From the NCBI GenBank assembly GCA_030526265.1, contig JAUNDE010000015.1, forward strand, positions 1 to 45,665: a stretch of 45,665 nucleotides of DNA. The letters run 5' to 3'. Source of the DNA: Eubacteriales bacterium (GTDB lineage Bacteria; Bacillota; Clostridia; Lachnospirales; Lachnospiraceae). The notes beneath the pieces are model-generated. The model did no database searches and had not been told where the DNA came from. It saw only the letters and a list, made by a program, of their open reading frames with translations. The position numbers and the translations under genes are program-made. This document shows, piece by piece, positions 645 through 32,757 of the stretch (the first letter of the stretch is position 1; each line of letters starts with the position of its first letter).

Positions 645-1016
645 TTAATAAATAGAAACCTCTGTACCTTCTACAAGGTCAGATGCAACCACTTTTTCAC
701 AGCCTTCCAGCATGATACATCCCGGAAGAGCAGCCTCTGATCCACCGGCGAAATTAATCGTACAATGTCCAAGAGACTTCAAAGTGATCGGCGCCTCAAT
801 ACCAACTGCAGTGATGATAAACTCTTTTTTACCAATCTTCATTGTGTCGCCAACCATCGGTTCTTCGTAGATCTCTGATTTTGTGTGCAACACAGAGATA
901 TCTGCGAGCTCTGCCGGCGCATCCTCATTAAAGAGGATGAAAAAACTGTTATCCGGATCATCCAGAAACATCAAAGCTTCCGGACCGTGTCCTACAATTT
1001 TTACCTGAAATTTCAT
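645..1016 (-). CDS. srlB: PTS glucitol/sorbitol IIA component
   Basis: The 123-residue protein has exactly the usual length of the glucitol-family IIA, the cytoplasmic phosphocarrier that passes phosphate from HPr to IIB. It opens with MKFQVKIVGHGPEA, contains the LGHCTINF stretch near residues 82-89 expected of this small beta-rich family, and ends with VEGTEVSIY. An AGGAGAAT ribosome site precedes the ATG. It follows the IIB/C1 gene after a 125-bp gap that holds a perfect hairpin and a 17-bp direct repeat, so its expression relative to the membrane genes may be set by RNA processing. Family and role are firm from sequence plus neighbours; sorbitol as substrate is inferred from the family. 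Confidence 0.92.
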   Translation of the reverse strand: MKFQVKIVGHGPEALMFLDDPDNSFFILFNEDAPAELADISVLHTKSEIYEEPMVGDTMKIGKKEFIITAVGIEAPITLKSLGHCTINFAGGSEAALPGCIMLEGCEKVVASDLVEGTEVSIY

Positions 1017-1039
1017 TGCAATTCTCCTTCTATTCTAGT

Positions 1040-1084
1040 GATTCTGTCGAATCCAGCGTATTAAACAGATTCTGTCTAATACAG
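1040..1084. repeat. Two near-identical 17-bp direct repeats upstream of srlB
   Basis: GATTCTGTCGAATCCAG at 1040-1056 and GATTCTGTCTAATACAG at 1068-1084 differ at two positions and are 28 bp apart. They lie in the srlE-srlB gap beside the hairpin. They may be a protein or RNA binding pair; function unknown. Confidence 0.6.
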
Positions 1085-1087
1085 TTT

Positions 1088-1116
1088 CTTTGCCGGTTCA
1101 TAACAAACCGGCAAAG
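1088..1116 (-). other. Perfect 11-bp hairpin between srlE and srlB
   Basis: CTTTGCCGGTT at 1088-1098 pairs perfectly with AACCGGCAAAG at 1106-1116 around a 7-base loop. No U-run follows on the minus strand, so it is a poor intrinsic terminator. A 3'-end-stabilising or processing hairpin inside the operon mRNA is more likely. Confidence 0.7.
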
Positions 1117-1141
1117 ACTTAAAAACTAAAATACTTATATT

Positions 1142-2137
1142 TTAGAACATTCCAATACTGAATACGAATGCAAGCAATACTGAAATAGGTCCTGTGATCA
1201 TACGCTCGAAAAGAACTGCAGGAACACCGAGCTCGATTGTCTCTGGCTCTGCATCTCCGAGAGAAAGTCCTACAGGAACGAAGTCTCCACCAACCTGAGC
1301 GTCAATTGCGAACAATGCACAAAGAGCGTATTTTGCAGGAATTGCTCCTGTTGCGAACTGAGCACCAAGGAGTGTACCTACAACCTGTGCGATAACAGCA
1401 CCAGGTCCAAGGATTGGTGAAAGGAACGGAAGACCGCAGATGAATGAGATAGCGATCATTCCTGGAAGTGTACTACAAATTGGAGCAACTGTGTTAGCGA
1501 TAACATCACCAAGGCCAGATGCACTGATGATACCAAGCAATGTAGCTGTAAATGCCATGAATGGTAAGATGTTTCTGATTACCATATCGATTGTTTCACG
1601 ACCAGCAGCAAAGAATTTGTTAACTACGTTACCAACAGCTTTACCGATACGAACAACGATACCCTGTTTCTGTCCAGCCTGAGCTGCTGCTACTTCCTCT
1701 TTAGCCTGTGCTTTTGTCTTTGGAGCATCAGCCTTTGGAGCTGCCTTTGCAGCTGCAGCAACATCTGCTTCGTCAGCATAAGATACGCAATCTTCTGTTA
1801 CAGCTGAAACATAGATATCAGGTGTAATGTACTGAGCGAGAGGTCCTGACTGTCCAACCGGTGTCAGGTTAACAGTAAAGATACCTTTCTTAGGATATAC
1901 TCCACAACGAGCTGTTCCGCCACAGTCTACTACTGCAAGGCAAACTTCGTCATCTGGACATCCTGTCTTGAATCCGTCAACAACTTCACAGCCTGTCATA
2001 TCAGCGATGTACTGTGAAAGAGGAACGATTCCGCCACCAGTTACGTTCAAGATCTTGTGGCATTTTTCAGTTGGAGTGATAGTTAATGGGCCACCCCATC
2101 CGCCCTGTCCTGCTTTAATTGTAATTGACTTATACAT
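1142..2137 (-). CDS. srlE: PTS glucitol/sorbitol IIB-C1 component
   Basis: The 331-residue protein is the IIB domain fused to half of the membrane domain, as in SrlE/GutE. The IIB part covers roughly residues 1-120 and contains GGWGGPL and a CPDDEVCLAVVDCGG stretch with candidate phosphocysteines. An Ala/Lys-rich linker (about 130-155) leads to the membrane part, with hydrophobic segments around 190-225, 230-260 and 300-330 and the conserved FVPVGLSLGDAEPETIELG loop. It phosphorylates the polyol during import together with SrlA. It starts 23 bases behind srlA in the same operon. Length and order match the enteric srlA-srlE-srlB arrangement. Confidence 0.94.
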   Translation of the reverse strand: MYKSITIKAGQGGWGGPLTITPTEKCHKILNVTGGGIVPLSQYIADMTGCEVVDGFKTGCPDDEVCLAVVDCGGTARCGVYPKKGIFTVNLTPVGQSGPLAQYITPDIYVSAVTEDCVSYADEADVAAAAKAAPKADAPKTKAQAKEEVAAAQAGQKQGIVVRIGKAVGNVVNKFFAAGRETIDMVIRNILPFMAFTATLLGIISASGLGDVIANTVAPICSTLPGMIAISFICGLPFLSPILGPGAVIAQVVGTLLGAQFATGAIPAKYALCALFAIDAQVGGDFVPVGLSLGDAEPETIELGVPAVLFERMITGPISVLLAFVFSIGMF

Positions 2138-2160
2138 ATTCGATATCCTCCTTTACCAAA

Positions 2161-2676
2161 TTAAGCTTTCTTTGCCATTGCAGCGTAGATCTTCTCACAG
2201 AGAATACCACGAATCAAAATAACTACCAAACCGCAAAGGAAGTATCTTACAGCAAGACCTGCTGTTGCATATCCAGCTTCTGCAACACCTGCAGAGATAC
2301 CTGTCCATACGAACAACTCACCAGCATTTGCATGTGGGAAAAGTCCTGTAATAGGATGAACGAACGAAACTGCTGCATCGTAGAATGCAGGTTTGTGTTC
2401 CTCTTTACAGAAACGTCCAAATGTGTAACATGCCGGGTTTGCAAGGAAGAATACAGCTAACATAGGAAGCAAAGAATATCTGAGTACTGTATACTTTGTG
2501 ATCTTCTGAGCAAAGCTTTCTACTTTGTCTGTACCAACGATTTTGATGATTGAGTTAACGAATGTCATCAAACATACTACAAGCGGGATAATACCTGTAA
2601 CCCATCCCATAAAGGTTGCTCCACCTGCGTTAAAAAGGCTAATAAACGCTTCCGCAGCTTTAGAAATAATTTCCAT
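2161..2676 (-). CDS. srlA: PTS glucitol/sorbitol IIC2 component
   Basis: This 171-residue membrane protein is the second half of the glucitol permease. It has hydrophobic segments near residues 20-45, 68-90 and 135-165, and the family stretches GWVTGIIPLVVCLMTFVNS and LLPMLAVFFLANPACYTFG. A GGAGGAGA ribosome site precedes the ATG at 2676. As the promoter-proximal gene it heads srlA-srlE-srlB-oxidoreductase. The family normally has about 180 residues, so it looks complete. Confidence 0.93.
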   Translation of the reverse strand: MEIISKAAEAFISLFNAGGATFMGWVTGIIPLVVCLMTFVNSIIKIVGTDKVESFAQKITKYTVLRYSLLPMLAVFFLANPACYTFGRFCKEEHKPAFYDAAVSFVHPITGLFPHANAGELFVWTGISAGVAEAGYATAGLAVRYFLCGLVVILIRGILCEKIYAAMAKKA

Positions 2677-2697
2677 AGTCTCTCCTCCATTTTACTC

Positions 2698-2727
2698 ATT
2701 ATAAGTATCCTATATATATAACGCCAA
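2698..2727 (-). promoter_or_regulatory. Predicted sigma-A promoter of the glucitol PTS operon
   Basis: On the minus strand TTGGCG (2727-2722), an 18-bp spacer and TATAAT (2703-2698) form a good sigma-A promoter. The leader would be only about 15 nt before the srlA ATG at 2676. Confidence 0.6.
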
Positions 2728-2823
2728 TGACTTTCTGAGCATCTCTGTTCCGCCTGGGCCCTTGGTTTCCCAAAGATTTTCTCCTGTCATTATGCCAATT
2801 ATATATCTACATTGATTAAGGTC

Positions 2824-3789
2824 TCAAAGTAAAAGCTCTGCAGCATCAACATTTGTAACGAGAATGTTGATAAATCCCCCCCTGATTGCTCCCTTGATTG
2901 CCTCAGCACGCGCTGTTCCTCCGGCGATTCCGATTCGGTTTCTCACTTTCCTGATCGCCTCCGGTCTCATCCCGGCAACACGGTCGTTGAATTCGCTGAA
3001 CTTGCCAGTATTACCTTCTTCATCATAAAAATGAAGTACAATATCTCCTACCGCTCCGTCTTCGACAATCTGCTCGATTTCCCTTTTCGTGATGTAACCT
3101 GCACTGATCAGTGTGGACTCCATCCCTTTCGGTGTTCCGATTCCCATCACCACCGTATCCAGCTTTTTGAAATCATCGTAAATATAACTTACAGACTTCT
3201 CCTTCAGGAAATATTCCATTACCTTTTTCTCCGAAAAAACTGCCGGCGAAAGAAACTGTGTATATGTACCGCCGAACTTCCTGGAAAAATCCTGAACAAT
3301 ACGATTACTCTGGATATCGACTTTATCCATCGTTCCCTGGCTGATTCCTCCGGTGATAGGAACAAACATCAGATTTTTATCTTTTTCAAATACTCTTCTT
3401 GTTCTTCCCACCCCATGAAGTGTATGCCCCATGGAGACACCGATATAATCTCCATCTTTAAAAAACTGTGACAGATAAAGGGCCGCTCTCTCGTACAGAC
3501 GGGATGCTGATTCTTTCTTTGTGTCAAGCACATTGCCTTCCACCACGATCACATCTTTCAGTCCGTACTTGCGCTCCAACGCTTTTTCCAATTTGTTATA
3601 CGAGAATTCCACCGGATTGATCACCTCAATGCGAACAATTCCACTCTCCTTGCCAAGCTGAAGCATTCTTGAAACTGTCGCTCTTGAAATCCCCAGATAA
3701 TCGCTGACTTCCTGCTGACGCATATCATCTTCATAATAGAGGCTGCATACTTTATAAACCAAACGCCAATCATCAACAATTTTCTTCAT
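2824..3789 (-). CDS. SorC/DeoR-type sugar-binding transcriptional regulator
   Basis: From the ATG at 3789 the protein has 321 residues, the normal SorC size. A G-rich ribosome site (GGGGGGA) precedes it; an upstream in-frame ATG at 3846 has no such site. The N-terminus has a helix-turn-helix (QQEVSDYLGISRATVSRML, about residues 25-45). The rest is the phosphosugar-binding domain, with SMGHTLHG, PITGGISQGT, VMGIGTP and VGDIVLHFYD motifs. It sits directly upstream of, and parallel to, the glucitol PTS operon, so it is the likely regulator, responding to the phosphorylated polyol. The family and context are clear; activator versus repressor is not visible. Confidence 0.88.
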   Translation of the reverse strand: MKKIVDDWRLVYKVCSLYYEDDMRQQEVSDYLGISRATVSRMLQLGKESGIVRIEVINPVEFSYNKLEKALERKYGLKDVIVVEGNVLDTKKESASRLYERAALYLSQFFKDGDYIGVSMGHTLHGVGRTRRVFEKDKNLMFVPITGGISQGTMDKVDIQSNRIVQDFSRKFGGTYTQFLSPAVFSEKKVMEYFLKEKSVSYIYDDFKKLDTVVMGIGTPKGMESTLISAGYITKREIEQIVEDGAVGDIVLHFYDEEGNTGKFSEFNDRVAGMRPEAIRKVRNRIGIAGGTARAEAIKGAIRGGFINILVTNVDAAELLL

Positions 3790-3851
3790 AAGGAATCCCC
3801 CCGACCTCTTATCAAAAATTTTACTAGAATCAAAAAACAGAATCAATATTG

Positions 3852-8556: not shown

Positions 8557-9177
8557 TTACATAGAGAAGATTGGTCTTACTTTCTTGTAGATCAGGAATA
8601 CGATAATGGAATCAAGTACTCCTTTCAGAATATTAAATGGCGCTACTGCAAATGCAATGAACGTGAACAGGCTTGTAATATTTGCATTGACAGCTGTTCC
8701 CATGCTCACGAGTGCCTCGATCGGCATTCCAAATGCCTTTCCGTATGCAGGAAGCAGAACATATGCATTGAGGAAGCATCCGGCAAATGTCATAAGAACT
8801 GTTCCGACGAGCATTCCGATGATCGCACCTTTTCTTGTGTGATTTTTTCTGTAGATCATTCCTGCAGGAACTACAAATGACACACCGAGAATAAAGTTCG
8901 CCAATTCTCCGACACCTGCTGTAACGGTACCATTGATCACAAAGTTCAGAAGGATCTTGATGAATTCAATCGCAACACCCGCAACCGGTCCCATCACGAA
9001 ACATCCGAGAAGTACAGGAACTTCACTGAAGTCGATCTCATAAAATGAAGGTGCAAACGGGAGCGGAACTTCAAAAAGCATTAATACTACGGCGATTGCT
9101 CCAAGCATACCGATCTGTGCGATCATTTTCACCTTTGAATTTGTGTTTGTTGTCTTTGCTGCTGTCTGTGTACTCAT
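8557..9177 (-). CDS. ribU: ECF transporter substrate-binding subunit for riboflavin
   Basis: The 206-residue protein has about six hydrophobic segments and the S-component traits of RibU: MIAQIGMLGAIAVVLM near the start, then PFAPSFYEIDFSEVPVLLG and the PVAGVAIEFIKILLNF segment. It binds riboflavin and works with a shared ECF energising module encoded elsewhere. An AGGAGACAAAGAA ribosome site precedes the ATG. The upstream FMN riboswitch and terminator confirm the substrate. No other gene follows closely on the strand before the DUF1292 gene 100 bp on. Confidence 0.95.
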   Translation of the reverse strand: MSTQTAAKTTNTNSKVKMIAQIGMLGAIAVVLMLFEVPLPFAPSFYEIDFSEVPVLLGCFVMGPVAGVAIEFIKILLNFVINGTVTAGVGELANFILGVSFVVPAGMIYRKNHTRKGAIIGMLVGTVLMTFAGCFLNAYVLLPAYGKAFGMPIEALVSMGTAVNANITSLFTFIAFAVAPFNILKGVLDSIIVFLIYKKVRPIFSM

Positions 9178-9280: not shown

Positions 9281-9305
9281 GAGTATACATCTGTCTGTCG
9301 CACAA

Positions 9306-9424
9306 TTCTTCTCTCATCCAGACTTTACTGTCGGTTCTGGAGTTTCACCAGATCAGCCATCATACATCGTATGACAGGTCGCGGACTATACCGCCGGTTG
9401 GGACTTGCACCCGACCCCGAAGAA
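9306..9424 (-). promoter_or_regulatory. FMN riboswitch (RFN element) controlling ribU
   Basis: Read on the minus strand the block shows the conserved RFN pieces in order: TTCGGGGTCGGGTGCAAGTC, then CCAACCGGCGGTATAGTCCG, a variable hairpin (9344-9380 region), GGTGAAACTCCAGAACCGAC, and the closing AGTAAAGTCTGGATGAGAGA. The two ends pair (CTTC/GAAG). It binds FMN and, with the downstream terminator, turns off ribU when FMN is plentiful. All core segments are intact. Confidence 0.96.
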
Positions 9425-9446
9425 TCAATTCCTTATTACGGAAGTT

Positions 9447-21436: not shown

Positions 21437-22078
21437 TTATACACCAACCTTTTTACAAATATCAGAGAGGCAGCATCTGTCACAGTACGGCTTTGTCCTT
21501 GCCGTACAGACTGCACGCCCGTGGTCCACGAGACGATGACAGAAATCATTGCCCTCTTCCGGCGGAATGATCTTCCAGAGCGCCATCTCCACTTTCTTTG
21601 GCTCTTTGATCCCATCGACAAGTCCCATACGATTCACAAGACGGATACAGTGTGTGTCCGTGACGATCGCCGGCTTTCCAAATACATCTCCCATGATGAG
21701 GTTCGCACTCTTTCTTCCAACGCCCGGAAGCTTCATAAGCTTATCAAAGTCATCCGGAACATTTCCATCGTATTCATCTCTCAGTATCTTCATACATGCG
21801 CTGATATCTCTCGCCTTGCTTTTGCCGAGCCCGCATGGTTTTACGATCGCTTCGATCTGTTCCGGTGTCGCTTCTGCGAGCGCATTCACATCCGGAAACT
21901 CTTTGTACAAGTCCTCCACGACAACATTCACCCTTGCATCTGTGCACTGAGCTGCGAGGCGGACGCTCACAAGAAGCTTCCATGCCTGATCATAATCCAA
22001 TGTACAGTCCGAATCCGGATATTCTTCTTTCAGTCTCTCAATGATGAGCTTTGCACGTTCCTTCTTTCTCATTTGCAC
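21437..22078 (-). CDS. nth: Endonuclease III (DNA glycosylase/AP lyase)
   Basis: The 213-residue protein has the helix-hairpin-helix LPGVGRKSA (117-125) with catalytic Lys123, and Asp141 in VTDTHCIRL. The C-terminal [4Fe-4S] cysteines are C191, C199, C202 and C208, one residue more in the first gap than the usual C-X6-C. It removes oxidised pyrimidines. It heads the nth-Nif11-like-glpP operon. Confidence 0.95.
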   Translation of the reverse strand: MQMRKKERAKLIIERLKEEYPDSDCTLDYDQAWKLLVSVRLAAQCTDARVNVVVEDLYKEFPDVNALAEATPEQIEAIVKPCGLGKSKARDISACMKILRDEYDGNVPDDFDKLMKLPGVGRKSANLIMGDVFGKPAIVTDTHCIRLVNRMGLVDGIKEPKKVEMALWKIIPPEEGNDFCHRLVDHGRAVCTARTKPYCDRCCLSDICKKVGV

Positions 22079-22113: not shown

Positions 22114-22160
22114 CAAGGAGACTCAAAAAGAGCCCCCTTGCCGGAAATTACTTTATTTTT

Positions 22161-23264
22161 TTAATGATGGAACAGACGGATTCCGGTAAATGCCATTACC
22201 ATATCGTACTTGTTACATGTCTCGATGACATTGTCATCTCTTACAGATCCGCCCGGCTGAGCGATATATTTGACTCCGCTCTTATGTGCTCTCTCGATAT
22301 TGTCTCCAAACGGGAAGAACGCATCCGAACCAAGTGATACATCTGTAAGCGTGTCAAGCCATGCGCGTTTCTCTTCTCTTGTGAATACATCAGGCTTCTC
22401 TGAGAAAATATTTGGCCATGCTTCATCATTTAACACATCCATATATTCATCGCCGATATAAAGGTCGATCGCATTGTCGCGGTCTGCGCGGCGGATACCC
22501 TCTTTGAATGGAAGGTTCAATACCTTTGGACACTGTCTTAACCACCAGTTATCTGCCTTCTGTCCGGCAAGTCTTGTGCAGTGAATACGCGACTGCTGTC
22601 CGGCTCCGATACCGATTGCCTGTCCGTCCTTTACATAGCAAACAGAGTTAGACTGTGTGTATTTCAATGTGATCATGGAAATCGCAAGATCAATCTTTGC
22701 CTGCTCTGTCATTTCCTTATTATCTGTAACGATCTCATTGAAGAAGTCTTCATCGATCTTCAGTTCATTTCTTCCCTGCTCGAAGGTAATGCCGAATACT
22801 TCTTTGTGCTCGATCTCAGCCGGAACATAGTCCGGATCGATCTGAATGACATTGTAATTGCCGTTTTTCTTCTGCTTCAGGATCTCAAGTGCTTCCGGTT
22901 CATATCCAGGAGCGATCACGCCGTCAGAAACTTCTCTCTTGATCAGTCTTGCCGTGTCTACATCACAGACATCAGAAAGTGAGATGAAATCGCCGAAAGA
23001 AGACATTCTGTCTGCGCCTCTTGCTCTCGCATATGCACACGCAAGCGGAGACAGCTCACCAAGGTCATCTACCCAGTAGATCTTCGCAAGTGTGTCTGAA
23101 AGCGGAAGTCCGACTGCGGCACCTGCAGGTGAAACATGTTTGAATGAAGTAGCTGCCGGAAGTCCAGTCGCTTTCTTCAGTTCTCTTACGAGCTGCCAGC
23201 CATTGAACGCATCAAGGAAGTTGATGTATCCCGGACGTCCGGAAAGTACCTGGATCGGAAGATC
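22161..23264 (-). pseudogene. 5'-truncated second copy of AICAR transformylase
   Basis: This segment encodes residues 26-392 of the same protein as the intact gene at 30712-31890, apparently without any difference. The first ~25 codons, including the conserved KYGCNPNQ motif, are missing. In their place the frame runs into the first part of an exported-protein gene. The open frame could start at an ATG at 23285 (MSPANIK then DLPIQVLSG), but that ATG lies inside the foreign segment and has no clear ribosome site. It is the left copy of a 1104-bp direct repeat. It is probably inactive. Confidence 0.85.
22161..23264. repeat. Direct repeat copy 1 (1104 bp, AICAR transformylase sequence)
   Basis: Matches 30712-31815 at a constant offset of 8551. 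All stretches compared by eye are identical, and open frames in all six frames coincide, so identity is at or very near 100%. The left boundary is exactly the TAA stop codon; the right boundary is GATC at 23261-23264. Confidence 0.92.
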
Positions 23265-23425
23265 CTTAATGTTTGCTGGAGACATTCAATTCCCTGACCA
23301 CTAAGTACCACATACCCTTTTCCCTGTTTCAGGGCGGTTACATCTGCGGCATAAGATGTCATCGGTACACTGCATGTTACGATTGCTGAAAGCATGACTG
23401 CTGTTACGAAAGTTTTCTTCATCAT
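23265..23425 (-). pseudogene. 5' fragment of an exported-protein gene fused to the AICAR transformylase copy
   Basis: The ATG at 23425 (ATGATG after AAGGAGGTAACG) opens a clear signal peptide: MMKKTFVTAV then MLSAIVTCSVPMTSYAAD, with a likely AYA-type cleavage (SYA-AD). About 25 mature residues follow ([20 protein letters not shown]). The frame then meets the truncated AICAR transformylase sequence out of frame and ends at 23186. The native 3' part of this gene is absent. I do not recognise the family. Confidence 0.7.
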
Positions 23426-23523
23426 CGTTACCTCCTTGAACTTTTCGTTTGTGTTGTACCCAAGTTACAAGGAGCATGTTAACAAAGAATATGTGAAATT
23501 TCTACAAGCAAGTATTTCCAAAA

Positions 23524-23569
23524 GAGCGGATTCCACAAAAGTCATTTATGACTTTTGTGGAATCCGCTC
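23524..23569 (-). terminator. 46-bp perfect palindrome after the zinc alcohol dehydrogenase gene
   Basis: A 22-base arm beginning GAGCGGATTCCACAAAAGTC is followed by two bases and its exact complement. On the minus strand the hairpin ends in CTCTTTTGG, 21 bases past the stop at 23590, so it fits a terminator of the island operon, although the U-run is short. Confidence 0.65.
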
Positions 23570-23589
23570 CATGCACTTCATTATAAATT

Positions 23590-24645
23590 CTATGGTTTTA
23601 ATACTACTTTAATGCTTTCATGCTGCCTTGCTAGCTCATACCCTTTCTTCCACTCTTTTAATGGAAGTACATGGCTAATCATACTCTCTGCATCAATCAG
23701 ACCATATCTTAATAGTCTCAGTGCTTTATCCCAGGCTTCTGGCGTTGTACTTTTTACACCTCTCAATGTAAGTTCCTTAGAATACATAATTTTTCCAAGA
23801 GTCATTTCAATCATATCTAAGGAAACACCTATAAGAATCATCTGACCTCTCTTTTTCAAAACATCAAATCCGGTTTTTATTGCCTGCACCGATCCTGCGC
23901 ATTCATAATATGCATCACAGCCTCTTCCATCAGTCAGATCCATAATATATTCTTTTAAATCTGTTTTCTTTATATCCACCGTATGTTGAATTCCCAAAAT
24001 ATCCTTTGCAAAATTCATCCGTTTTTGACTTGACGTTCTTCCTGTCAGAACTACTACACAACCGCTGGCCTTTGCAACTTGAGACGCGTATAGACCTATC
24101 GGTCCGGGACCTGATACAATTACTACATTTCCGGGCTGAACTTTTGATTGATTCAATACCCCATGGACAGCACAAGCAAGCGGCTCTGTAGGTGCTGCGG
24201 CCTCATAGCTTAAGTTATCTGGTATTTTATGCACACTTCTTTCTGGCACAACCACATATTCTGCAAAAAAACCGCCAATGCCAGACCCCAGCCCTACTCT
24301 TTTTTCGCAACAGTTGAAATAAGATTCATAGCAGTTTTCACACTGCATGCAACTCTCATAAGTTGTTTCAGCAACTACTCTGTCACCGACCTTATAGTTT
24401 TTAACGCCCTCACCGACTTCAACGATTTCTCCGCTTCCTTCATGTCCCAGTATGACAGGCATTCTATAACGGTTATCCACCTGCATATTATCATACAAAA
24501 CATGTACATCTGAACCACAGATTGAACTCGCATGAACTTTAATTTTCACCTGTCCGTATTGAGCATTCGGCTCTGGAATATCCTCCCTGTATATGGTTCC
24601 ATTTACACCAAACTTTTCTTTTACAATACCTTTCATAAAACTCAT
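23590..24645 (-). CDS. Zinc-dependent alcohol dehydrogenase (sorbitol/galactitol-phosphate dehydrogenase type), second copy
   Basis: The 351-residue MDR protein has catalytic-zinc residues in SICGSDVH and GHEGSGEIVEVGEGV (about 69-83), the structural-zinc cysteines CMQCENCYESYFNCC (about 100-114), and a Rossmann VIVSGPGPIGLYASQVA. It begins on the stop codon of the IIC gene (TAATG overlap), so it is tightly coupled to the transporter. Together with the other zinc enzyme of the island it would oxidise a polyol phosphate to a ketose phosphate. Galactitol-1-phosphate dehydrogenase (GatD) is the nearest familiar role; substrate not proven. Confidence 0.88.
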   Translation of the reverse strand: MSFMKGIVKEKFGVNGTIYREDIPEPNAQYGQVKIKVHASSICGSDVHVLYDNMQVDNRYRMPVILGHEGSGEIVEVGEGVKNYKVGDRVVAETTYESCMQCENCYESYFNCCEKRVGLGSGIGGFFAEYVVVPERSVHKIPDNLSYEAAAPTEPLACAVHGVLNQSKVQPGNVVIVSGPGPIGLYASQVAKASGCVVVLTGRTSSQKRMNFAKDILGIQHTVDIKKTDLKEYIMDLTDGRGCDAYYECAGSVQAIKTGFDVLKKRGQMILIGVSLDMIEMTLGKIMYSKELTLRGVKSTTPEAWDKALRLLRYGLIDAESMISHVLPLKEWKKGYELARQHESIKVVLKP

Positions 24646-25898
24646 TATGCAAAGATTGATAATATCTTAGCCACAATCCACGCAATCAGTTCTCCGCCAC
24701 CAGATAATGCTGAAACAGAGCCTGCACTGGCATCAATCAGTCCACTGCTCAGCCCGACCTGAGTAAAGAGAGGCGCCAAATCGGTAGCAATAAACAACAT
24801 ACCGCAAATCACAACGATGCCAATGAGCAGCGAACGGAATGAATTCCTCTTTCCTGCCATTACAGGTGCTACCATAAAGTATGTCATTGCAGGCAAATCT
24901 GTAAATGGTAATAACTTATTATATGGAAGAACGATTGCAAGCAGCAGTGTAATTGGAACCATGATCATGGACATAGTAATTACTTCTTTATCTCCTAAGA
25001 GAACTGCCAAATCCATACCAATATTCATCTTTCTTCCAGGGAACTTCTTACTCATGAATTCCTGTGCAGCATTAGAGAGGGGGCTTAATCCTTCCATCAG
25101 GATTTTAACCATTCTAGGAAGAATAAACATAACAGCAGCCATACCAATACCTGCAGTCAATGCAGCTTCCCAGCCTGTCCCTGCAAGCAATGATAATACA
25201 AACCCAAGGATAAAGCCAAGGAATAGCGGTTCACCCAAAAAAGCAACCTTCGGGTTCATAGATGTCAAACTAAACTTAACCTTCCTCAGTCCCGGTATAT
25301 GATCAATCACCCAATCCAGTCCCATACAGATATACATTGTTAACGGAAAGCTCTGAGTTGTAATCGTGACACCTGGATATCCCAAAAACTCTGCAATCCT
25401 TTCTGCATGCTTATCAGCAAGCAGCAGAACAACCCCACCATAGATTCCTCCGGCTACGCATCCAACAATCATGTTTCCTGTCATTGCATATGCCAAAGAA
25501 CCTCCCATGATAAAATGCCAGTAATTCCAAATATCAACGTTTAATGTATCTGTCCATTTCAAAATAAGTAATACAATGTTAACGCCAATCAATACCGCAA
25601 ACATAGCTACCACAAAACTTCCATTGGAAAAGGCAATACCACTGGACACTGGCCAGCCCATATCATATGTATCAAGAGACATATGCCATTTTGCCTGAAG
25701 CCCCTCAATAATAGGGGACATGAATCCTCCCATCTGTCCTGTGATTAAGTTGATACCAATAAAGCCCACTCCAACAGTAAATCCCGAACGCAGCGCTTTG
25801 ATTGGCTTCATGCCAACAATCAAACCAATGATAAAGATAATAATCGGCATCATCACCGATGCTCCAAGTCCCAAAATTGTGTTAATAAATCCTAGCAT
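24645..25898 (-). CDS. PTS galactitol-family IIC membrane component
   Basis: The 417-residue protein has many hydrophobic segments and the GatC family run: GFTVGVGFIGINLITGQMGG (about 39-58), then YDMGWPVSSGIAFSNGSF (about 78-95), LLLADKHAERIAEFLGYPGV and the GIGMAAVMFILPRMVKILME region. It is the channel through which the polyol enters while being phosphorylated by IIB. The gene order IIA-IIB-IIC is compact (24-bp and 15-bp gaps). The galactitol family also carries pentitols and other polyols, so the substrate is open. Confidence 0.92.
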   Translation of the reverse strand: MLGFINTILGLGASVMMPIIIFIIGLIVGMKPIKALRSGFTVGVGFIGINLITGQMGGFMSPIIEGLQAKWHMSLDTYDMGWPVSSGIAFSNGSFVVAMFAVLIGVNIVLLILKWTDTLNVDIWNYWHFIMGGSLAYAMTGNMIVGCVAGGIYGGVVLLLADKHAERIAEFLGYPGVTITTQSFPLTMYICMGLDWVIDHIPGLRKVKFSLTSMNPKVAFLGEPLFLGFILGFVLSLLAGTGWEAALTAGIGMAAVMFILPRMVKILMEGLSPLSNAAQEFMSKKFPGRKMNIGMDLAVLLGDKEVITMSMIMVPITLLLAIVLPYNKLLPFTDLPAMTYFMVAPVMAGKRNSFRSLLIGIVVICGMLFIATDLAPLFTQVGLSSGLIDASAGSVSALSGGGELIAWIVAKILSIFA

Positions 25899-25921
25899 AC
25901 TTTTACTCCTTCCATTTTATG

Positions 25922-26221
25922 TCATTTGATTCCTTTTAAGTAATCTGCAATTTCTTTGTATAAAGCTCCTGCATTTAAGTTCAGAAGAATTGGCATAGCT
26001 CCAAACGCCTTGACCCCCTTCAAATCCACACTTTCCAGAGAAGTTGTATGAATAATCACATCCGGCGGATTATTCTCAATTAATCCACCCGCTTCAGAAA
26101 CATTGGCTTCTGTTATAGATATATCTGTAATTCCATGTTCTTCAAGACCATCCTTCAGGCGACTCGCCACCAGAGTTGATGTTGCTATTCCGCTTCCGCA
26201 AATCGACAGTATTTTATACAT
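25922..26221 (-). CDS. PTS galactitol-family IIB component
   Basis: The 99-residue protein has the phosphocysteine loop ICGSGIATSTLVASRLKDGL near residues 6-25 (Cys7), the GatB/lactose-IIB-like fold size, and ends in YLKGIK. It takes phosphate from IIA and phosphorylates the incoming polyol. It is followed by the IIC gene 23 bases on. Confidence 0.92.
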   Translation of the reverse strand: MYKILSICGSGIATSTLVASRLKDGLEEHGITDISITEANVSEAGGLIENNPPDVIIHTTSLESVDLKGVKAFGAMPILLNLNAGALYKEIADYLKGIK

Positions 26222-26235
26222 AATTTTTCTCCTCT

Positions 26236-26688
26236 CTACTCCGAAATATATTTCTTTACAATTGCATATATGCTCTCTTTGTCCACTGCATTCATCAATT
26301 TTTCCATGTCATCTTCATCCTGAGCCAGCGTAATAACGCTTGATAATAATGGCAATTGTTTCCTTCCATCCGTAAATACTAATCCAAATACATATGCTGC
26401 ATCAACATAATTTTCTGGATTCGCCATTTCCTTAAATTTTACAGTGTTTTTAAGTTGAAAGATAATCACGCACGGCTTTATAACATGACAGGGGTCCGTA
26501 TGTGGAATTGCAATTGATCTGGGGATGATAGGCAGCCCCGTCGGGCTTTTCTCTTCTCTTTCCATAAGAGCATCCGTGTAGGTATCCTTCACATACCCTT
26601 TCTCCTGCAAAATACTGCCGATTTTCCTTAATACTTCCTTATAGTCGGCTGCCTCTACATCTAAATAAATGTTATCTAATTCAATCAC
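26236..26688 (-). CDS. PTS IIA component, fructose/mannitol-galactitol type
   Basis: The 150-residue protein has the phosphohistidine motif SIAIPHTDPCHV (about 58-69; His63), preceded by REEKSPTGLPIIPR, as in EIIA-2 domains of GatA type. It carries phosphate from HPr to the IIB encoded next. It starts 63 bases after the iron alcohol dehydrogenase stop. Confidence 0.92.
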   Translation of the reverse strand: MIELDNIYLDVEAADYKEVLRKIGSILQEKGYVKDTYTDALMEREEKSPTGLPIIPRSIAIPHTDPCHVIKPCVIIFQLKNTVKFKEMANPENYVDAAYVFGLVFTDGRKQLPLLSSVITLAQDEDDMEKLMNAVDKESIYAIVKKYISE

Positions 26689-26751
26689 TGTTTACCCCTT
26701 TCTCAGAAGATATCCTCCGTATGAATAAATATATGTCCAGATTATTATATC

Positions 26752-27924
26752 TTAATAGCAGCTCTTAAGCACCTCTATAATATGATCTTTTTCAAATACA
26801 TAAGTCTCCGGAGCATCCAGCACACATTCAGCAATCTCATCAAACATCTCTTCTTTTACTCCCAACTCTCTCAAGGTGGTAGGGAGTCCCCATGATTTGA
26901 ATTTATCTTTCAAAGCTTTCAATCCAAGCTTTCCGTATTCGACATCACTCATGCCCTCTTTTCGCTCTATTCCAAAAACTCTCTGCGTAAACTGAACAAA
27001 TTTTTCAGGGTTCTTTTCATTTTCAAATTCAAGCCACGCCGGATTAATTACTGCAAGCCCTTCGCCATGAGAGGAATCTGTCATTGCTCCAACAGCATGC
27101 TGTATCCAGTGGGCCGGAAAGCCTGCATTTGATCTTCCGCAATCCTGAAGACCACTCATAGCTAATGTCGCCGCCCAGCTCAACGCCCCACGTTTCGATG
27201 TGTTGCCCAAATCTTCTAACACTCCATCGCTCTCCAACACAGTCATGACGATTCCTTCTCCAATTCTGTCTGAAACAGGATTATCAGGGACACCATCAAA
27301 ATACCCTTCTATCACATGTGAGATAGTATCTGCCATTCCTGCCGCCGTTAATCTTTTTGGAACCGTCTTCAGCAAATCAGGATCAATAATTGCCGTTTTC
27401 GGAAACGCAAAGGAATCATGAACAGCCCATTTCTGCCATTTAGTACAATCCTCGCTTCTGTCATTCGTGACAACACAGTGGCAGCTTGTCTCAGCGCCAG
27501 TGGCAGAAATCGTTGACACTGCTATGACCGGAAGTGATTTTTCTATCTGTCTTTTTCTCTCAAAAAAGTCCCAAACATCCGTATCTACAGGAGCACCAAA
27601 AGCGATGGCTTTCGCTGTATCTATGGAACTTCCTCCTCCAACGGCAACGATAACTTCAATCTTATTTTCCTTTACAAACTGAATTCCCTCTTCAATTTTT
27701 GAAAGCTTTGGATTGCTTGTAATTCCTTTTAATTCAAATACGTTTACACCACAGCTTTCCATATAATCTATGGCCTGTCTAAACACACCCATTTCTTCCA
27801 ATGGCCCCTCCTGCTCTATTAAAAGAGCAGAAGATCCATACATTTTTACTTCACTTCCAAGCTGCTTATACTCACCAATTCCAAAAACAACTTTTGTCGG
27901 ATTAAAATACTGAAAATTATTCAT
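26752..27924 (-). CDS. Iron-containing alcohol dehydrogenase
   Basis: From the ATG at 27924 the protein has 390 residues, the family length. It shows IVAVGGGSSIDTAKAIAFGA (about 88-107), the metal-ligand segments MADTISHVIEGYF and DSSHGEGLAVINPAWLEF, and an N-terminal FNPTKVVFG. It is of the butanol/lactaldehyde dehydrogenase group, which usually reduces short aldehydes with NAD(P)H. The ATG is 1 base after the aldolase stop, with GGAGG inside the aldolase 3' end as ribosome site; the upstream in-frame ATG at 27996 overlaps the aldolase and is rejected. In context it may reduce the aldehyde released by the aldolase. Confidence 0.9.
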   Translation of the reverse strand: MNNFQYFNPTKVVFGIGEYKQLGSEVKMYGSSALLIEQEGPLEEMGVFRQAIDYMESCGVNVFELKGITSNPKLSKIEEGIQFVKENKIEVIVAVGGGSSIDTAKAIAFGAPVDTDVWDFFERKRQIEKSLPVIAVSTISATGAETSCHCVVTNDRSEDCTKWQKWAVHDSFAFPKTAIIDPDLLKTVPKRLTAAGMADTISHVIEGYFDGVPDNPVSDRIGEGIVMTVLESDGVLEDLGNTSKRGALSWAATLAMSGLQDCGRSNAGFPAHWIQHAVGAMTDSSHGEGLAVINPAWLEFENEKNPEKFVQFTQRVFGIERKEGMSDVEYGKLGLKALKDKFKSWGLPTTLRELGVKEEMFDEIAECVLDAPETYVFEKDHIIEVLKSCY

Positions 27925-27925
27925 A

Positions 27926-28570
27926 TTATACCGCTCCGCCTCCTTTTGCAGCCGCGTGAATTGCCAGAGCAGACTCTTCCGGAATAAATTCATCAAATCC
28001 TGCTGCTATTGCATAGTAAGCAACCTGCGCACATTCTTCTGTGTATACAGCGCAAGTCATAGCCGCGTCCATATCGCCTCCCGTAGCTATAAGACCATGA
28101 TTTTTAAGAAGTGTAACATCTCCTTCCTTTCCGATAGCTCTTACAGCAGAATCTGCCAGTTCCTCAGAACCAGGAAGTGCAAAACAGTCTGTCGTTGGAA
28201 TCGGATAATACATATTAGACGGAACTGTTGCTGTCGGTAAATTCTTTCCCTTCATAGACATAACCGTAGCAAATAAAGAATGTGTGTGCACTACCGCTTT
28301 TACGTCCGGACGTGCTCTCATGATTGCAGTATGCATTGGTGTTTCGGAAGAAGGTTTATATTTTCCTTCTATCATATTTCCATTTAAGTCTACCAGACAG
28401 ATATCCTCCGCAGTCATAGTCTCGTACTCTACTCCACTTGGTGTGATTGCAACAACATCATCTTTTTCATCTCTCATCGAAATATTGCCACTTGTTCCAT
28501 GAATAAGTCCAAGTGCATTTGATTTTTTTGCAGCTTCTACTACTATTTCCCTAATCTTCTGATATTTCAT
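27926..28570 (-). CDS. Class II aldolase/adducin family, L-fuculose-phosphate aldolase type
   Basis: The 214-residue protein matches FucA in length. It has GLIHGTSGNISMR (about 21-33), the catalytic glutamate in SSETPMH (about 74-80), zinc histidines in VVHTHS (about 92-97) and LLKNHGL (about 153-159). FucA-type enzymes split L-fuculose-1-phosphate into DHAP and lactaldehyde; L-ribulose-5-phosphate 4-epimerases share the fold and cannot be fully excluded, but the motif around the glutamate and the adjacent aldehyde-reducing enzyme favour an aldolase. Confidence 0.85.
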   Translation of the reverse strand: MKYQKIREIVVEAAKKSNALGLIHGTSGNISMRDEKDDVVAITPSGVEYETMTAEDICLVDLNGNMIEGKYKPSSETPMHTAIMRARPDVKAVVHTHSLFATVMSMKGKNLPTATVPSNMYYPIPTTDCFALPGSEELADSAVRAIGKEGDVTLLKNHGLIATGGDMDAAMTCAVYTEECAQVAYYAIAAGFDEFIPEESALAIHAAAKGGGAV

Positions 28571-28585
28571 TTTTAATCTTTTCTC

Positions 28586-29620
28586 CTATCCTATTTTAAT
28601 TTCATTCTTTATAGATTCACCCTTTGCATGAGACAGCAATGCATCCAACGCATGGTCAAGTGAAAATGTTTTATTTACCATCAATTCCTCTGGAAATTCT
28701 CCTCGTTTCAGCAATTCAAAAGCAATACCCACATGTCTTGGTGTTGTGTGGTAAACACCTTTAATTGTAAGCTGAGAATAATGGAGTAATTTTGTGTCTA
28801 TAGTGATAGATGTTCCCGGCTTACAGCCACCAAACTCCATAACCATTCCACCTTTTCTTGCCATCAGAATATTTTTCTCCCACACCTCAGGAACACCGGT
28901 AGCTTCTATTGCAACATCGACGCCTCTTCCATTAGGAGTTAAGCCCCTTACTGCTTCCACCTGATCTTCCACTTTCTTCAAGTCAACAATCATATCAGCA
29001 CCCAGCTGTTTTGCAGTCTCCAATCTCAGATCTGTAAAATCACAGGCAATAACTTTTGCTCCCTGCAATTTTGCACAATGCAACATCATTAAGCCAATAG
29101 GACCACATCCATTCACCACTACCAGATCTCCAAGTTTGATATCACACAAATCCACACCATATACCGCGCATGATAAAGGCTCCAATAAAGATGCTGTTTT
29201 GTGTGTCATGTTTTCTGGCATATGGAAGATAGTTTCTTTAACTAAGGCCGCCGGAATTTTAACATATTCAGCCCAGGTACCTCTCATCTGCTGCAAATCA
29301 TCACACATGCTATAATCGCCAATCTGGCAGGAATAACAAGAATGACATGGTGCTGTATTGTGCGCTGCAATTCTATCGCCAACTTTAAACTTTGTAACGC
29401 CTTCTCCTACCTCATAGACAATTCCACTTCCCTCATGCCCGAATGCCACATGGTTCGCACCGAATGGAATTGTCGGATGTCCACGTCTGAATGTTTTCAC
29501 ATCCGTACCACAAGTGGTGGCGCTCATCACCTTCATAATAATTTCTCCCGGACCTGCCTTTGGCATAGGTAAATCCATGATTCTCAAATCCTCTGCCTGG
29601 TTTAATACTGCTGCTTTCAC
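28586..29620 (-). CDS. Zinc-dependent alcohol dehydrogenase, first enzyme gene of the island
   Basis: A GTG at 29620, 8 bases after GAGGAGG, is the best start (344 residues). The protein has TTCGTDVKTFRRGHP (catalytic-zinc Cys, about 35-49), GHEGSGIVYEVGEGV, the structural-zinc cysteines CHSCYSCQIGDYSMC (about 92-106) and VVVNGCGPIGLMML for NAD binding. It resembles sorbitol, threonine or arabitol-phosphate dehydrogenases. It is the first gene after the DeoR regulator. Having two distinct zinc enzymes suggests two oxidations or two substrates. Confidence 0.88.
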   Translation of the reverse strand: MKAAVLNQAEDLRIMDLPMPKAGPGEIIMKVMSATTCGTDVKTFRRGHPTIPFGANHVAFGHEGSGIVYEVGEGVTKFKVGDRIAAHNTAPCHSCYSCQIGDYSMCDDLQQMRGTWAEYVKIPAALVKETIFHMPENMTHKTASLLEPLSCAVYGVDLCDIKLGDLVVVNGCGPIGLMMLHCAKLQGAKVIACDFTDLRLETAKQLGADMIVDLKKVEDQVEAVRGLTPNGRGVDVAIEATGVPEVWEKNILMARKGGMVMEFGGCKPGTSITIDTKLLHYSQLTIKGVYHTTPRHVGIAFELLKRGEFPEELMVNKTFSLDHALDALLSHAKGESIKNEIKIG

Positions 29621-29653
29621 TAAAGTCAACCTCCTCTTTTCCTATTTTTGGGT

Positions 29654-29729
29654 ATAAAAATAACACTCTTGCAAAATTTCTTTTCGCAAAGTGATTATTT
29701 TCCATATTTAAAACAATTGCTCTCTCCAT
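29654..29729 (-). promoter_or_regulatory. Intergenic control region before the island's structural genes
   Basis: The 109-bp gap between the DeoR-type stop and the dehydrogenase start holds TTGCGAAAAGAAATTTTGCAA, a near-palindrome of TTGC(G)AAAA and TTTTGCAA (about 29671-29691 on minus), which could be an operator. A weak promoter (TTGCGA, 18 bp, TGTTAT) overlaps it. Confidence 0.35.
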
Positions 29730-30509
29730 CTACCCGACTCTAACTACTTCTGTTCCCTGCTTCTTAATTCTCTGGAAAATATCCAATGGCAGATATTTAT
29801 CGGTTATGAAATAGTCTATATCGTCAAAACGTATACATTTCATTTTGTTCCAGCTTTTTATCTTGCTTGAATCAGAACACAAAATAACCGTATTACTACA
29901 TTTAACAAGTTTGCTTTTATACATTTTTTCGTTATAAGTATCCACAAGAACACCATAATCAAAATCTATATAAGCACTGGATAAAAATACTTTGTCAAAG
30001 TACAATCCATCAATTTCATTGATTGTTTGTATTCCCATTATTGTTGAATGATTTTTAAGGAGTTTTCCTGAAACAACATTCACCTCAAAATCATAATCAT
30101 TGTTAACCATTTCCAGTATGATTGAAACAGAATTTGTAAATACCACGATGTCCTTTGCTTTAATATATTTCAGCATATAATTAATCGTCGAACCAGCATC
30201 CAGAAAAATGACATCTCCATCACAAATCATTTCAGCCGCTTTTTTGGCAATAACTTCCTTTGCTTCCCTGCTTACCTTCGCCCTCTGCTGAAAAGATGGC
30301 AGGTCTGTTTGTGACTCAACTAAGAATACACCTCCATATACTCTTTTCACCTTTCCCTGGGTTTCCATCAAATCCAAATCTCTTTTTATCGTAGATTCTG
30401 AAACTTTAAACCTTGCCATCAAATCATGAACAGAACAATATTGTTTTTTTGCTATCTCATCACAGATAGCTTCTCTTCGTATATTTCTTTTATTAAGTCT
30501 CTCTGTCAT
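29730..30509 (-). CDS. DeoR/GlpR family transcriptional regulator
   Basis: From the ATG at 30509 (5 bases after GAGG) the protein has 259 residues. The N-terminal DeoR helix-turn-helix is VHDLMARFKVSESTIKRDLD (about 28-47), and the sugar-phosphate sensing domain shows DAGSTINYMLKYI and LCSDSSKIKSWNKMKCIRF. Repressors of this family usually respond to a phosphorylated intermediate. As first gene of the island cluster it is the likely local regulator. Confidence 0.9.
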   Translation of the reverse strand: MTERLNKRNIRREAICDEIAKKQYCSVHDLMARFKVSESTIKRDLDLMETQGKVKRVYGGVFLVESQTDLPSFQQRAKVSREAKEVIAKKAAEMICDGDVIFLDAGSTINYMLKYIKAKDIVVFTNSVSIILEMVNNDYDFEVNVVSGKLLKNHSTIMGIQTINEIDGLYFDKVFLSSAYIDFDYGVLVDTYNEKMYKSKLVKCSNTVILCSDSSKIKSWNKMKCIRFDDIDYFITDKYLPLDIFQRIKKQGTEVVRVG

Positions 30510-30559
30510 ATCATCCTCATCTTTCAAGATTGATTTTGAATATCTTCAACTAAAACATA

Positions 30560-30590
30560 TGCCATTTTTTGATTGTTTTCAACCATATTT
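30560..30590 (-). promoter_or_regulatory. Predicted promoter of the DeoR-type gene
   Basis: TTGAAA, a 17-bp spacer and TATGTT lie on the minus strand about 50 bp before the start at 30509. The -10 is imperfect. Confidence 0.45.
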
Positions 30591-30603
30591 TTTTAATTAA
30601 ATG

Positions 30604-30651
30604 TAAAAAAGGCGAAAATCATTCTTTTTTATGAATGTTTTCGCTTTTTTT
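30604..30651. terminator. Intrinsic terminator between the intact AICAR transformylase and the island
   Basis: GCGAAAATCATTC pairs with GAATGTTTTCGC around a TTTTTTAT loop, with T-runs on both strands. On the minus strand it ends the purine transcript 60 bp past its stop and separates it from the DeoR promoter. Confidence 0.75.
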
Positions 30652-30711
30652 GAACGACTTTATTCTTTTTTATTCAAACCCTGCTTTTGTCTTATTTTTC
30701 ACTACAATTTC

Positions 30712-31815
30712 TTAATGATGGAACAGACGGATTCCGGTAAATGCCATTACCATATCGTACTTGTTACATGTCTCGATGACATTGTCATCTCTTACAGATC
30801 CGCCCGGCTGAGCGATATATTTGACTCCGCTCTTATGTGCTCTCTCGATATTGTCTCCAAACGGGAAGAACGCATCCGAACCAAGTGATACATCTGTAAG
30901 CGTGTCAAGCCATGCGCGTTTCTCTTCTCTTGTGAATACATCAGGCTTCTCTGAGAAAATATTTGGCCATGCTTCATCATTTAACACATCCATATATTCA
31001 TCGCCGATATAAAGGTCGATCGCATTGTCGCGGTCTGCGCGGCGGATACCCTCTTTGAATGGAAGGTTCAATACCTTTGGACACTGTCTTAACCACCAGT
31101 TATCTGCCTTCTGTCCGGCAAGTCTTGTGCAGTGAATACGCGACTGCTGTCCGGCTCCGATACCGATTGCCTGTCCGTCCTTTACATAGCAAACAGAGTT
31201 AGACTGTGTGTATTTCAATGTGATCATGGAAATCGCAAGATCAATCTTTGCCTGCTCTGTCATTTCCTTATTATCTGTAACGATCTCATTGAAGAAGTCT
31301 TCATCGATCTTCAGTTCATTTCTTCCCTGCTCGAAGGTAATGCCGAATACTTCTTTGTGCTCGATCTCAGCCGGAACATAGTCCGGATCGATCTGAATGA
31401 CATTGTAATTGCCGTTTTTCTTCTGCTTCAGGATCTCAAGTGCTTCCGGTTCATATCCAGGAGCGATCACGCCGTCAGAAACTTCTCTCTTGATCAGTCT
31501 TGCCGTGTCTACATCACAGACATCAGAAAGTGAGATGAAATCGCCGAAAGAAGACATTCTGTCTGCGCCTCTTGCTCTCGCATATGCACACGCAAGCGGA
31601 GACAGCTCACCAAGGTCATCTACCCAGTAGATCTTCGCAAGTGTGTCTGAAAGCGGAAGTCCGACTGCGGCACCTGCAGGTGAAACATGTTTGAATGAAG
31701 TAGCTGCCGGAAGTCCAGTCGCTTTCTTCAGTTCTCTTACGAGCTGCCAGCCATTGAACGCATCAAGGAAGTTGATGTATCCCGGACGTCCGGAAAGTAC
31801 CTGGATCGGAAGATC
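30712..31815. repeat. Direct repeat copy 2 (1104 bp, AICAR transformylase sequence)
   Basis: Partner of the repeat at 22161-23264. It covers codon 26 to the stop of the intact gene. Flanking bases on both sides differ at once from copy 1 (C rather than T before the stop codon; TCTT rather than CTTA after GATC). Confidence 0.92.
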
Positions 31816-31902: not shown

Positions 31903-32616
31903 TTATTTATTCTTATTCACAATCTTTGATTCGTATTTTCCAGTTTCAATATCGATATAGCGAACAAAAAGCGATACTTTATTGTCCGCATTCAGACTGT
32001 TCCAGAGAAGCTCCACGAAGCTGTCCATGTCATCCGGAATCTCAACAAGCTTTGGCTCTCCCTCGAAGCTTGGAAGCGGATTGCCATCATGCATATAGGT
32101 GTGGATGAAACGTCCCTCACCTGCTTTTGCATTCTCATACGCGAATGTGTAGCGATTGCAGCTTGACGGATCACCGTTGTTGCTCTTAAGGATTGACATT
32201 GCATAGCTGTATTTTCCACTTTCTACATGCATAACACCGGAAATACGAGGTGTGTAGTTCGGAGCATCCGGCTCGAACTCTCTGCATCTGAGTGACTGCT
32301 CAAATGTGAGCTGTCTGTCCATTCCTTCGTAAATTGTATCTGTCTGATCACCATTTGTGACAATCGTCTTATTTCCAAGAACTCTTACAGGTGCATAGAT
32401 GATAAGACTCGGATCTGTGAGCTTAGACTCATCAAATGCCTGTGTGCGGATACCCTCGCCGTCTTCCACAAAGATACGGTTACGGCTGTTCTCGCTTCTT
32501 CCCATGATGAAGTAAGCTGTTACCGCTTTTGTGCCATCTGCACTTCTTCCAATGATAATACCTCTGCCAGGGTATGCGTTTTCCTTCAACTCTTTTTCAA
32601 TAGAAATTGGTTTCAT
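31903..32616 (-). CDS. purO: Archaeal-type IMP cyclohydrolase
   Basis: From the ATG at 32616, just after AAAGGAGAT, the protein has 237 residues. It has NAYPGRGIIIGRSADGTK (about 12-29), AYFIMGRSENSRNRIF, NGDQTDTI and NRYTFAYENAKAGEGRFIHT, the PurO pattern of an N-terminal-nucleophile-like hydrolase fold unrelated to the PurH cyclohydrolase. It closes FAICAR to IMP. The in-frame ATG at 32733 adds 39 low-complexity residues with no ribosome site and is rejected. Confidence 0.9.
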   Translation of the reverse strand: MKPISIEKELKENAYPGRGIIIGRSADGTKAVTAYFIMGRSENSRNRIFVEDGEGIRTQAFDESKLTDPSLIIYAPVRVLGNKTIVTNGDQTDTIYEGMDRQLTFEQSLRCREFEPDAPNYTPRISGVMHVESGKYSYAMSILKSNNGDPSSCNRYTFAYENAKAGEGRFIHTYMHDGNPLPSFEGEPKLVEIPDDMDSFVELLWNSLNADNKVSLFVRYIDIETGKYESKIVNKNK

Positions 32617-32757
32617 AAAATTATCTCCTTTATGAATTGCACGTTTCTTATGTTCCTTTTCATTATATAAAAAAGAAGATTTCTTTTCCATACGATTATC
32701 TATTATATTATTTTTTGCAGTTTCATAACTCACGCTTATAGAACAGGGTCGGATTTA

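Follow-up and report, generated by a model that had tools for sequence, protein, structure and literature searches.

How does a purine biosynthesis gene come to stand twice, identical over most of its length, on either side of a catabolic operon? The question is raised by a 45665-bp stretch of Lachnospiraceae DNA (the window, which is the whole of contig G000:C78), in which the gene for 5-aminoimidazole-4-carboxamide ribonucleotide (AICAR) formyltransferase, here called FT, is present as one intact and one 5′-truncated copy around an operon for polyol use. We propose a natural insertion-duplication, in which the 3′ part of a donor FT was circularised together with the operon and recombined into the resident FT through a single crossover, an account that we give about an even chance of being right.

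Two copies of FT in direct repeat

Positions 22161-23264 and 30712-31815 are identical letter for letter over 1104 bp at an offset of 8551, with the first mismatches at 22160 and 23265, and form the sole long direct repeat of the window. Read in the gene direction (minus strand), the repeat opens with the first base of FT codon 26 and closes with the final base of the stop codon, and 7447 bp separate the two copies. The initial annotation of this DNA had given the same limits and had described one whole and one 5′-cut gene; both descriptions held on direct comparison, copy B being full length and copy A lacking codons 1-25. The anatomy is thus X-R-I-R-Y, with native flanks (X, Y) outside the two repeats (R) and the island (I) between them:

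21437-22078, minus: nth (endonuclease III), the native gene downstream of FT; the two adjoin in the congener G008
22161-23264, minus: copy A (FT′), FT codons 26 to stop, 5′-truncated and without the conserved N-terminal block, identical to 30712-31815, with nth downstream
30712-31815, minus: the 1104-bp direct repeat inside intact FT, defined by sequence identity
30712-31890, minus: copy B, intact FT of 392 residues, full length against relatives
31903-32733, minus: inosine monophosphate (IMP) cyclohydrolase gene (purO-like; Pfam IMP_cyclohyd), native upstream neighbour of FT, beside which it lies in relatives' loci

FT matches the NCBIfam model for AICAR formyltransferase, PRK07106, with 741 bits against a cut-off of 415. 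Judging from its sequence, copy A is probably inactive, because it has lost the block LKYGCNPNQKP. Across 109 relatives' loci this block is invariant at all positions but the C, which 108 of them share (the loci partly overlap, and one of the six search patterns lay within the block), and the best solved relative of FT reads LRYGANPHQKP there. We take this stretch to help substrate binding in the human and avian enzymes. The probable loss of function holds despite an in-frame ATG from the flanking DNA, which supplies copy A with a false start of 7 codons (MSPANIK).

A whole-genome search of the source genome, G000, found FT in these two repeat copies only. When G000 and 60 relatives were searched, 53 of 61 genomes matched. 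FT is single-copy in each of the 29 other genomes that hold it, and the two-copy arrangement, which on the initial annotation's own terms should not be common to all relatives, was seen in none of them, most being drafts in which a second identical copy or a long repeat could be lost. The remaining matches are to distant PurH only, and the other genomes with two matches contain two pieces of this distantly related protein. A wider search of 397 genomes of the family gave matches in 338 (E ≤ 1e-40), four of them with two matches (G000, G181, G233 and G388). Recurrent duplication of FT in the family was considered and rejected, as the double matches in G181, G233 and G388 are weaker and probably reflect genes split between contigs.

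The identity of the two copies may be recent, maintained by gene conversion (which the initial annotation had raised as ongoing) or imposed by assembly. Short reads cannot cross 1104 identical bases. An assembler may flatten small differences between copies, and the exact identity may in part have been produced in this way if the contig is built from short reads. G000 (a draft of 2.23 Mb, 93% complete) is probably a short-read metagenome-assembled genome (MAG): its 107 contigs, a window that is an entire contig and the lack of a 16S rRNA match all fit one, the last being a weak sign because the same search was positive in only 9 of 14 control genomes. From such data, a walk through the assembly graph over an exact repeat yields one and the same contig for an integrated and for a free island. 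The source could then have been an empty chromosome (purO-FT-nth) accompanied by a free circle of 8551 bp, or else several strains mixed together, the assembler having walked the loop once and written an integrated island. We consider such an assembly effect, which the initial annotation had overlooked, to be unlikely. Both unusual junctions must physically exist unless reads were chimeric, and a stable free circle is itself improbable because none of the eight island genes is a replication or mobilisation gene.

The empty site in a congener

An intact FT next to nth, which the initial annotation had proposed to look for in other strains, was found in the congener G008, another species. There, purO-FT-nth is followed by the same glycerol genes as in the window, collinear from 13.2 kb to purO, and the locus represents an empty site. 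No second strain of the source species was found in the whole-genome collections searched, which hold one genome per species. Because FT′ lies beside nth in G000, the best reading is that FT and nth were already neighbours in the ancestor of this group. By gene identities, G008, G004 and G001 (for G001, nth and an antiterminator only) are closer to one another than to G000. In G004 and G001, another gene precedes nth, with a weak MmcB-like match in G004.

FT itself is native, because its identities to relatives, like those of purO, are about the same as those of nth and the glycerol genes; a foreign donor of FT was therefore rejected, its kinship agreeing with that of the neighbouring genes. 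The closest named matches of the FT protein are from Mediterraneibacter and other Lachnospiraceae.

What lies downstream of FT varies within the genus: among nine loci, a gene family of ~475 residues occupies this place in six, nth in one, HicAB in one and an unrelated open reading frame (ORF) in one. Under the proposed insertion, this would account for the edge of the repeat at the stop codon, since donor and recipient would differ right after FT. The perfect identity and sharp stop-codon edge could also arise without any donor FT, if one end of the incoming DNA had joined the FT stop on one sister chromatid and the other end codon 26 on the second, which would duplicate 1104 bp of target. 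We regard this as exceedingly improbable: two independent illegitimate joints would be required in one gene, and the neighbourhood of FT and a DeoR gene in G004, described below, would be left unexplained.

The island and its distribution

On the minus strand, the genes run greA, an amino-acid kinase gene (which we take to be argB-like), purO, intact FT, deoR, zinc dehydrogenase, class II aldolase, iron alcohol dehydrogenase, EIIA, EIIB, EIIC, zinc dehydrogenase, a truncated signal-peptide-like ORF, FT′, nth and the glycerol genes. The features between the two FT copies, including enzymes II of a phosphotransferase system (PTS), are as follows:

23265-23425, minus: 5′ part of a signal-peptide-like ORF, cut at the junction with FT codon 26; its out-of-frame run into FT makes a 79-residue ORF
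23524-23569, minus: 46-bp hairpin with two fully complementary 22-base arms (z -9.5), a likely terminator after the last operon gene
23590-24645, minus: zinc polyol/threonine-type dehydrogenase (Pfam ADH_N, ADH_zinc_N)
24645-25898, minus: galactitol-type PTS EIIC (Pfam EIIC-GAT, 229 bits; TIGR00827, 351 bits, under the cut-off of 542)
25922-26221, minus: PTS EIIB (Pfam PTS_IIB)
26236-26688, minus: PTS EIIA (Pfam PTS_EIIA_2)
26752-27996, minus: iron-containing alcohol dehydrogenase (Pfam Fe-ADH); the listed start overlaps the aldolase gene, and the true start may be later
27926-28570, minus: class II aldolase of ribulose-/fuculose-phosphate type (Pfam Aldolase_II)
28586-29629, minus: second zinc polyol-type dehydrogenase (Pfam ADH_N, ADH_zinc_N)
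29730-30527, minus: DeoR-family regulator (Pfam HTH_DeoR, DeoRC); a remnant of its 5′ end and of the DNA upstream lies beside FT in G004
30528-30711, minus: spacer between the FT stop and deoR, with a hairpin (likely the FT terminator); its alignment with G004 extends to ~15 bp from the FT stop

Together, the eight genes look like a complete polyol route under a DeoR regulator: besides the galactitol-type PTS, they encode an aldolase, two polyol(-phosphate) dehydrogenases and an alcohol dehydrogenase by which the aldehyde could be reduced; among the matches listed, no island gene passes an NCBIfam cut-off. Because hairpins follow the last gene and lie between FT and deoR, the operon is probably insulated from FT transcription. 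Two more galactitol-type PTS gene sets are present in G000 (L223, G000:C4; L224, G000:C1), the island being the third, and one of the two includes a related dehydrogenase (50%) and aldolase (37%).

The composition of the island, which the initial annotation had singled out for checking, differs from that of other genes: GC content at third codon positions is 0.34 (n = 8 genes) vs 0.47 (n = 23 genes; Mann-Whitney p = 5e-5). Only short stretches of its DNA, 66-93% identical, recur in the 60 relatives, for each of which the four best candidates were scored. In the 397 family genomes, the best EIIC identity outside G000 is 48%, and DeoR is matched at E ≤ 1e-40 in G000 only. From the genus, only G000 and G007 appear among the matches listed in the same DeoR search, and the other best matches in the genus reach at most 31% over most of the protein. 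Plasmid and phage origins of the island were both rejected: EIIC is at most 41.4% identical among the ten plasmid matches listed, with all 437 records below 60%, and a megablast of the entire region against phages finds nothing.

Two further features lie elsewhere in the window. Genes for a glucitol/sorbitol PTS, accompanied by a sugar-binding regulator, occupy 645-3846, and a flavin mononucleotide (FMN) riboswitch (9302-9428, minus) precedes the substrate-binding gene of an energy-coupling factor (ECF) transporter (8557-9177), probably an ordinary riboflavin uptake unit.

A DeoR remnant near FT in a second species

In G004, a 5′ remnant of the same DeoR lies ~1.2 kb downstream of FT, 71% identical over residues 6-36 (31 residues), together with homologous DNA upstream of deoR that reaches, in window terms, ~15 bp from the FT stop; with its coding part, the alignment scores 90. 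The chance of a remnant falling so close to FT is roughly estimated at <0.001 (2.4 kb of 4.2 Mb). Because such proximity is improbable by chance, FT and this DeoR were neighbours in another species too, through shared ancestry or repeated landing. The rest of DeoR was not found in G004, and the galactitol-type operon of that genome is a 40% paralogue. Directly downstream of FT, between it and the remnant, lies a HicA/HicB toxin-antitoxin pair (910-1544 of L153, on G004:C33). The remnant (L153 1-430) is interrupted near the contig end by repeated words such as GGTGGCTCCCAAGC, which resemble the end of an insertion sequence.

The remnant bears on two wider histories. One is an old duplication that predates the split of G000 and G004 and was kept identical by gene conversion, G008 having lost the island by precise excision. 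The DeoR trace beside FT in G004 speaks for it, and at four-fold sites of FT and purO the identity of G000 to G008 and G004 is 0.31-0.43, divergence so great that an old FT pair could look identical through conversion only. Set against this history, G004 lacks a second copy of FT and has nth at a different place, preceded by another gene, and 1.1-kb repeats spaced 7.4 kb apart should tend to be lost by deletion in so long a period; we hold it to be very improbable. The other history would have the operon travel among Mediterraneibacter-like species with the 3′ part of FT as its homology arm, landing repeatedly at FT and leaving precisely without a recombinase, so that G000 would be integrated, G008 empty and G004 a decayed former integration. 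This picture, which draws on the single remnant in G004, we consider quite doubtful.

Junctions and proposed origin

What machinery could have placed the island? The initial annotation had seen no integrase, and a Pfam scan of 46 window ORFs (8 island genes and 38 others, leaving out the edge ORF at 1-606, the signal-peptide ORF and small ORFs) likewise finds neither integrase nor transposase. ARAGORN detects no tRNA in the window. Comparison of 250 bp at each island end reveals no inverted repeat beyond chance (the best alignment was matched by 38 of 200 shuffles) and direct repeats of at most 7 shared exact bases, nothing beyond chance. An integrase-borne genomic island or integrative and conjugative element (ICE) was rejected, since the 46 ORFs scanned include no tyrosine or serine recombinase and the flanking repeat, at 1104 bp, is not a short att site. 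A composite transposon or IS-flanked island was rejected for want of any transposase in the 46 ORFs and of terminal inverted repeats beyond chance.

In the contig as assembled, the junction between the signal-peptide-like ORF and FT codon 26 reads AAG|GATC and falls inside two unrelated reading frames. It may reflect ligation of sticky ends. No close relative of the signal-peptide-like ORF was found in 20 relatives' genomes (best E 0.008), and the junction 35-mer is absent from viral contigs.

The proposed insertion-duplication would have run as follows. The ancestor would have carried purO-FT-nth. The donor would have been the same or a nearly identical strain with the deoR-PTS-polyol operon after FT, and a fragment of its DNA, bounded by FT codon 26 on one side and by the first part of the signal-peptide gene past the operon on the other, would have entered the cell. 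Joining of the fragment ends would give a non-replicating circle of 8551 bp with the junction AAG|GATC, and a single RecA crossover within the 1104 bp, presumably recent, would place it in the resident FT. Such an event would rebuild an intact FT beside the operon and leave a 5′-cut copy ahead of nth; the reverse crossover would return purO-FT-nth with an intact FT. There is precedent in E. coli, for which the relevant passages of one study describe linear DNA that escapes degradation being ligated to circles and entering by a single crossover, a route of partial degradation, ligation and crossover 10 times as frequent as homology-facilitated illegitimate recombination (PMC3240628).

That last process is the main biological rival, a close one that needs no circle. 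Linear donor DNA would have paired with FT at one end and been joined illegitimately at the other, at codon 26 upstream of the anchor, duplicating the segment between. The product would be the same, and a codon-26 joint inside two unrelated reading frames is what it predicts, equally fitting the end-joining of a circle. It is reported for naturally competent bacteria in the same source (PMC3240628), and the parts of another that concern displaced immunity genes propose it for type VI secretion system (T6SS) loci of Vibrio (PMC5361080). It is also rare, at 3e-10 per recipient in E. coli conjugation, and the source, in the passages on this process, describes insertion coupled to deletion, not duplication (PMC3240628). 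We think it fairly unlikely. The initial annotation had passed over this alternative too; its suggestion that a circle integrated by a single crossover does explain the anatomy.

Several observations weigh against the circle. Integration itself is the assembler's inference, and linear DNA with one homologous end gives the same anatomy. No strain with FT directly before the operon and without the second copy was found among the genomes searched. GATC starts at 0.8% of window positions, so that its occurrence at the junction is common enough, and no DpnII-family (PF04556) nuclease was found in G000 or nine congeners, apart from a partial 33-position match in G001 only, in a search whose control was positive in 1 of 14 genomes. 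In G004, the upstream part of the remnant is borderline when taken alone (score 39; 1 of 200 mononucleotide shuffles scored as high, with a maximum of 42), HicAB separates the remnant from FT, and the rest of the island is missing.

Relation to known systems

An island that arises through homologous recombination alone has no integrase and is easy to miss. Here both junctions are kept, a congener has the empty site and a second species retains a trace of the neighbourhood, which makes testable a route by which gut Lachnospiraceae would gain sugar operons without mobile-element machinery; the original joint would show in a donor strain that has the signal-peptide gene whole.

When an ICE or integrase island sits in the 3′ end of a housekeeping gene, a whole gene remains on one side and a fragment on the other, much as seen here. 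Unlike such elements, the present island has no integrase that we could find, and a 1104-bp repeat takes the place of a short att site. The microcin H47 island of E. coli, in the portions of the report that describe it, is closer in being small (13 kb), without recombination genes of its own and flanked by extensive direct repeats; those repeats are imperfect, and its excision and integration were shown experimentally, also without homologous recombination (PMC3191183). In Vibrio T6SS immunity arrays and the displaced ends of Rhs genes, as set out in the relevant sections of the Vibrio study, an older gene part likewise stays behind new DNA anchored in the same region, whereas new and old genes differ there, and the present case has identical copies and a catabolic operon as cargo (PMC5361080).

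The nearest likeness is the Campbell-type insertion of a non-replicating circle. In both, direct copies of the target homology, one whole and one cut, flank the insert, and the event is reversible through the same repeats without a recombinase; the empty target site is found in G008. Unlike its laboratory counterpart, this island is natural, carries a metabolic operon as cargo and would derive from a circle deduced from its product. The feature, then, is real, and most likely a natural insertion-duplication by homologous recombination, a new example of a type of insertion well known from the laboratory.

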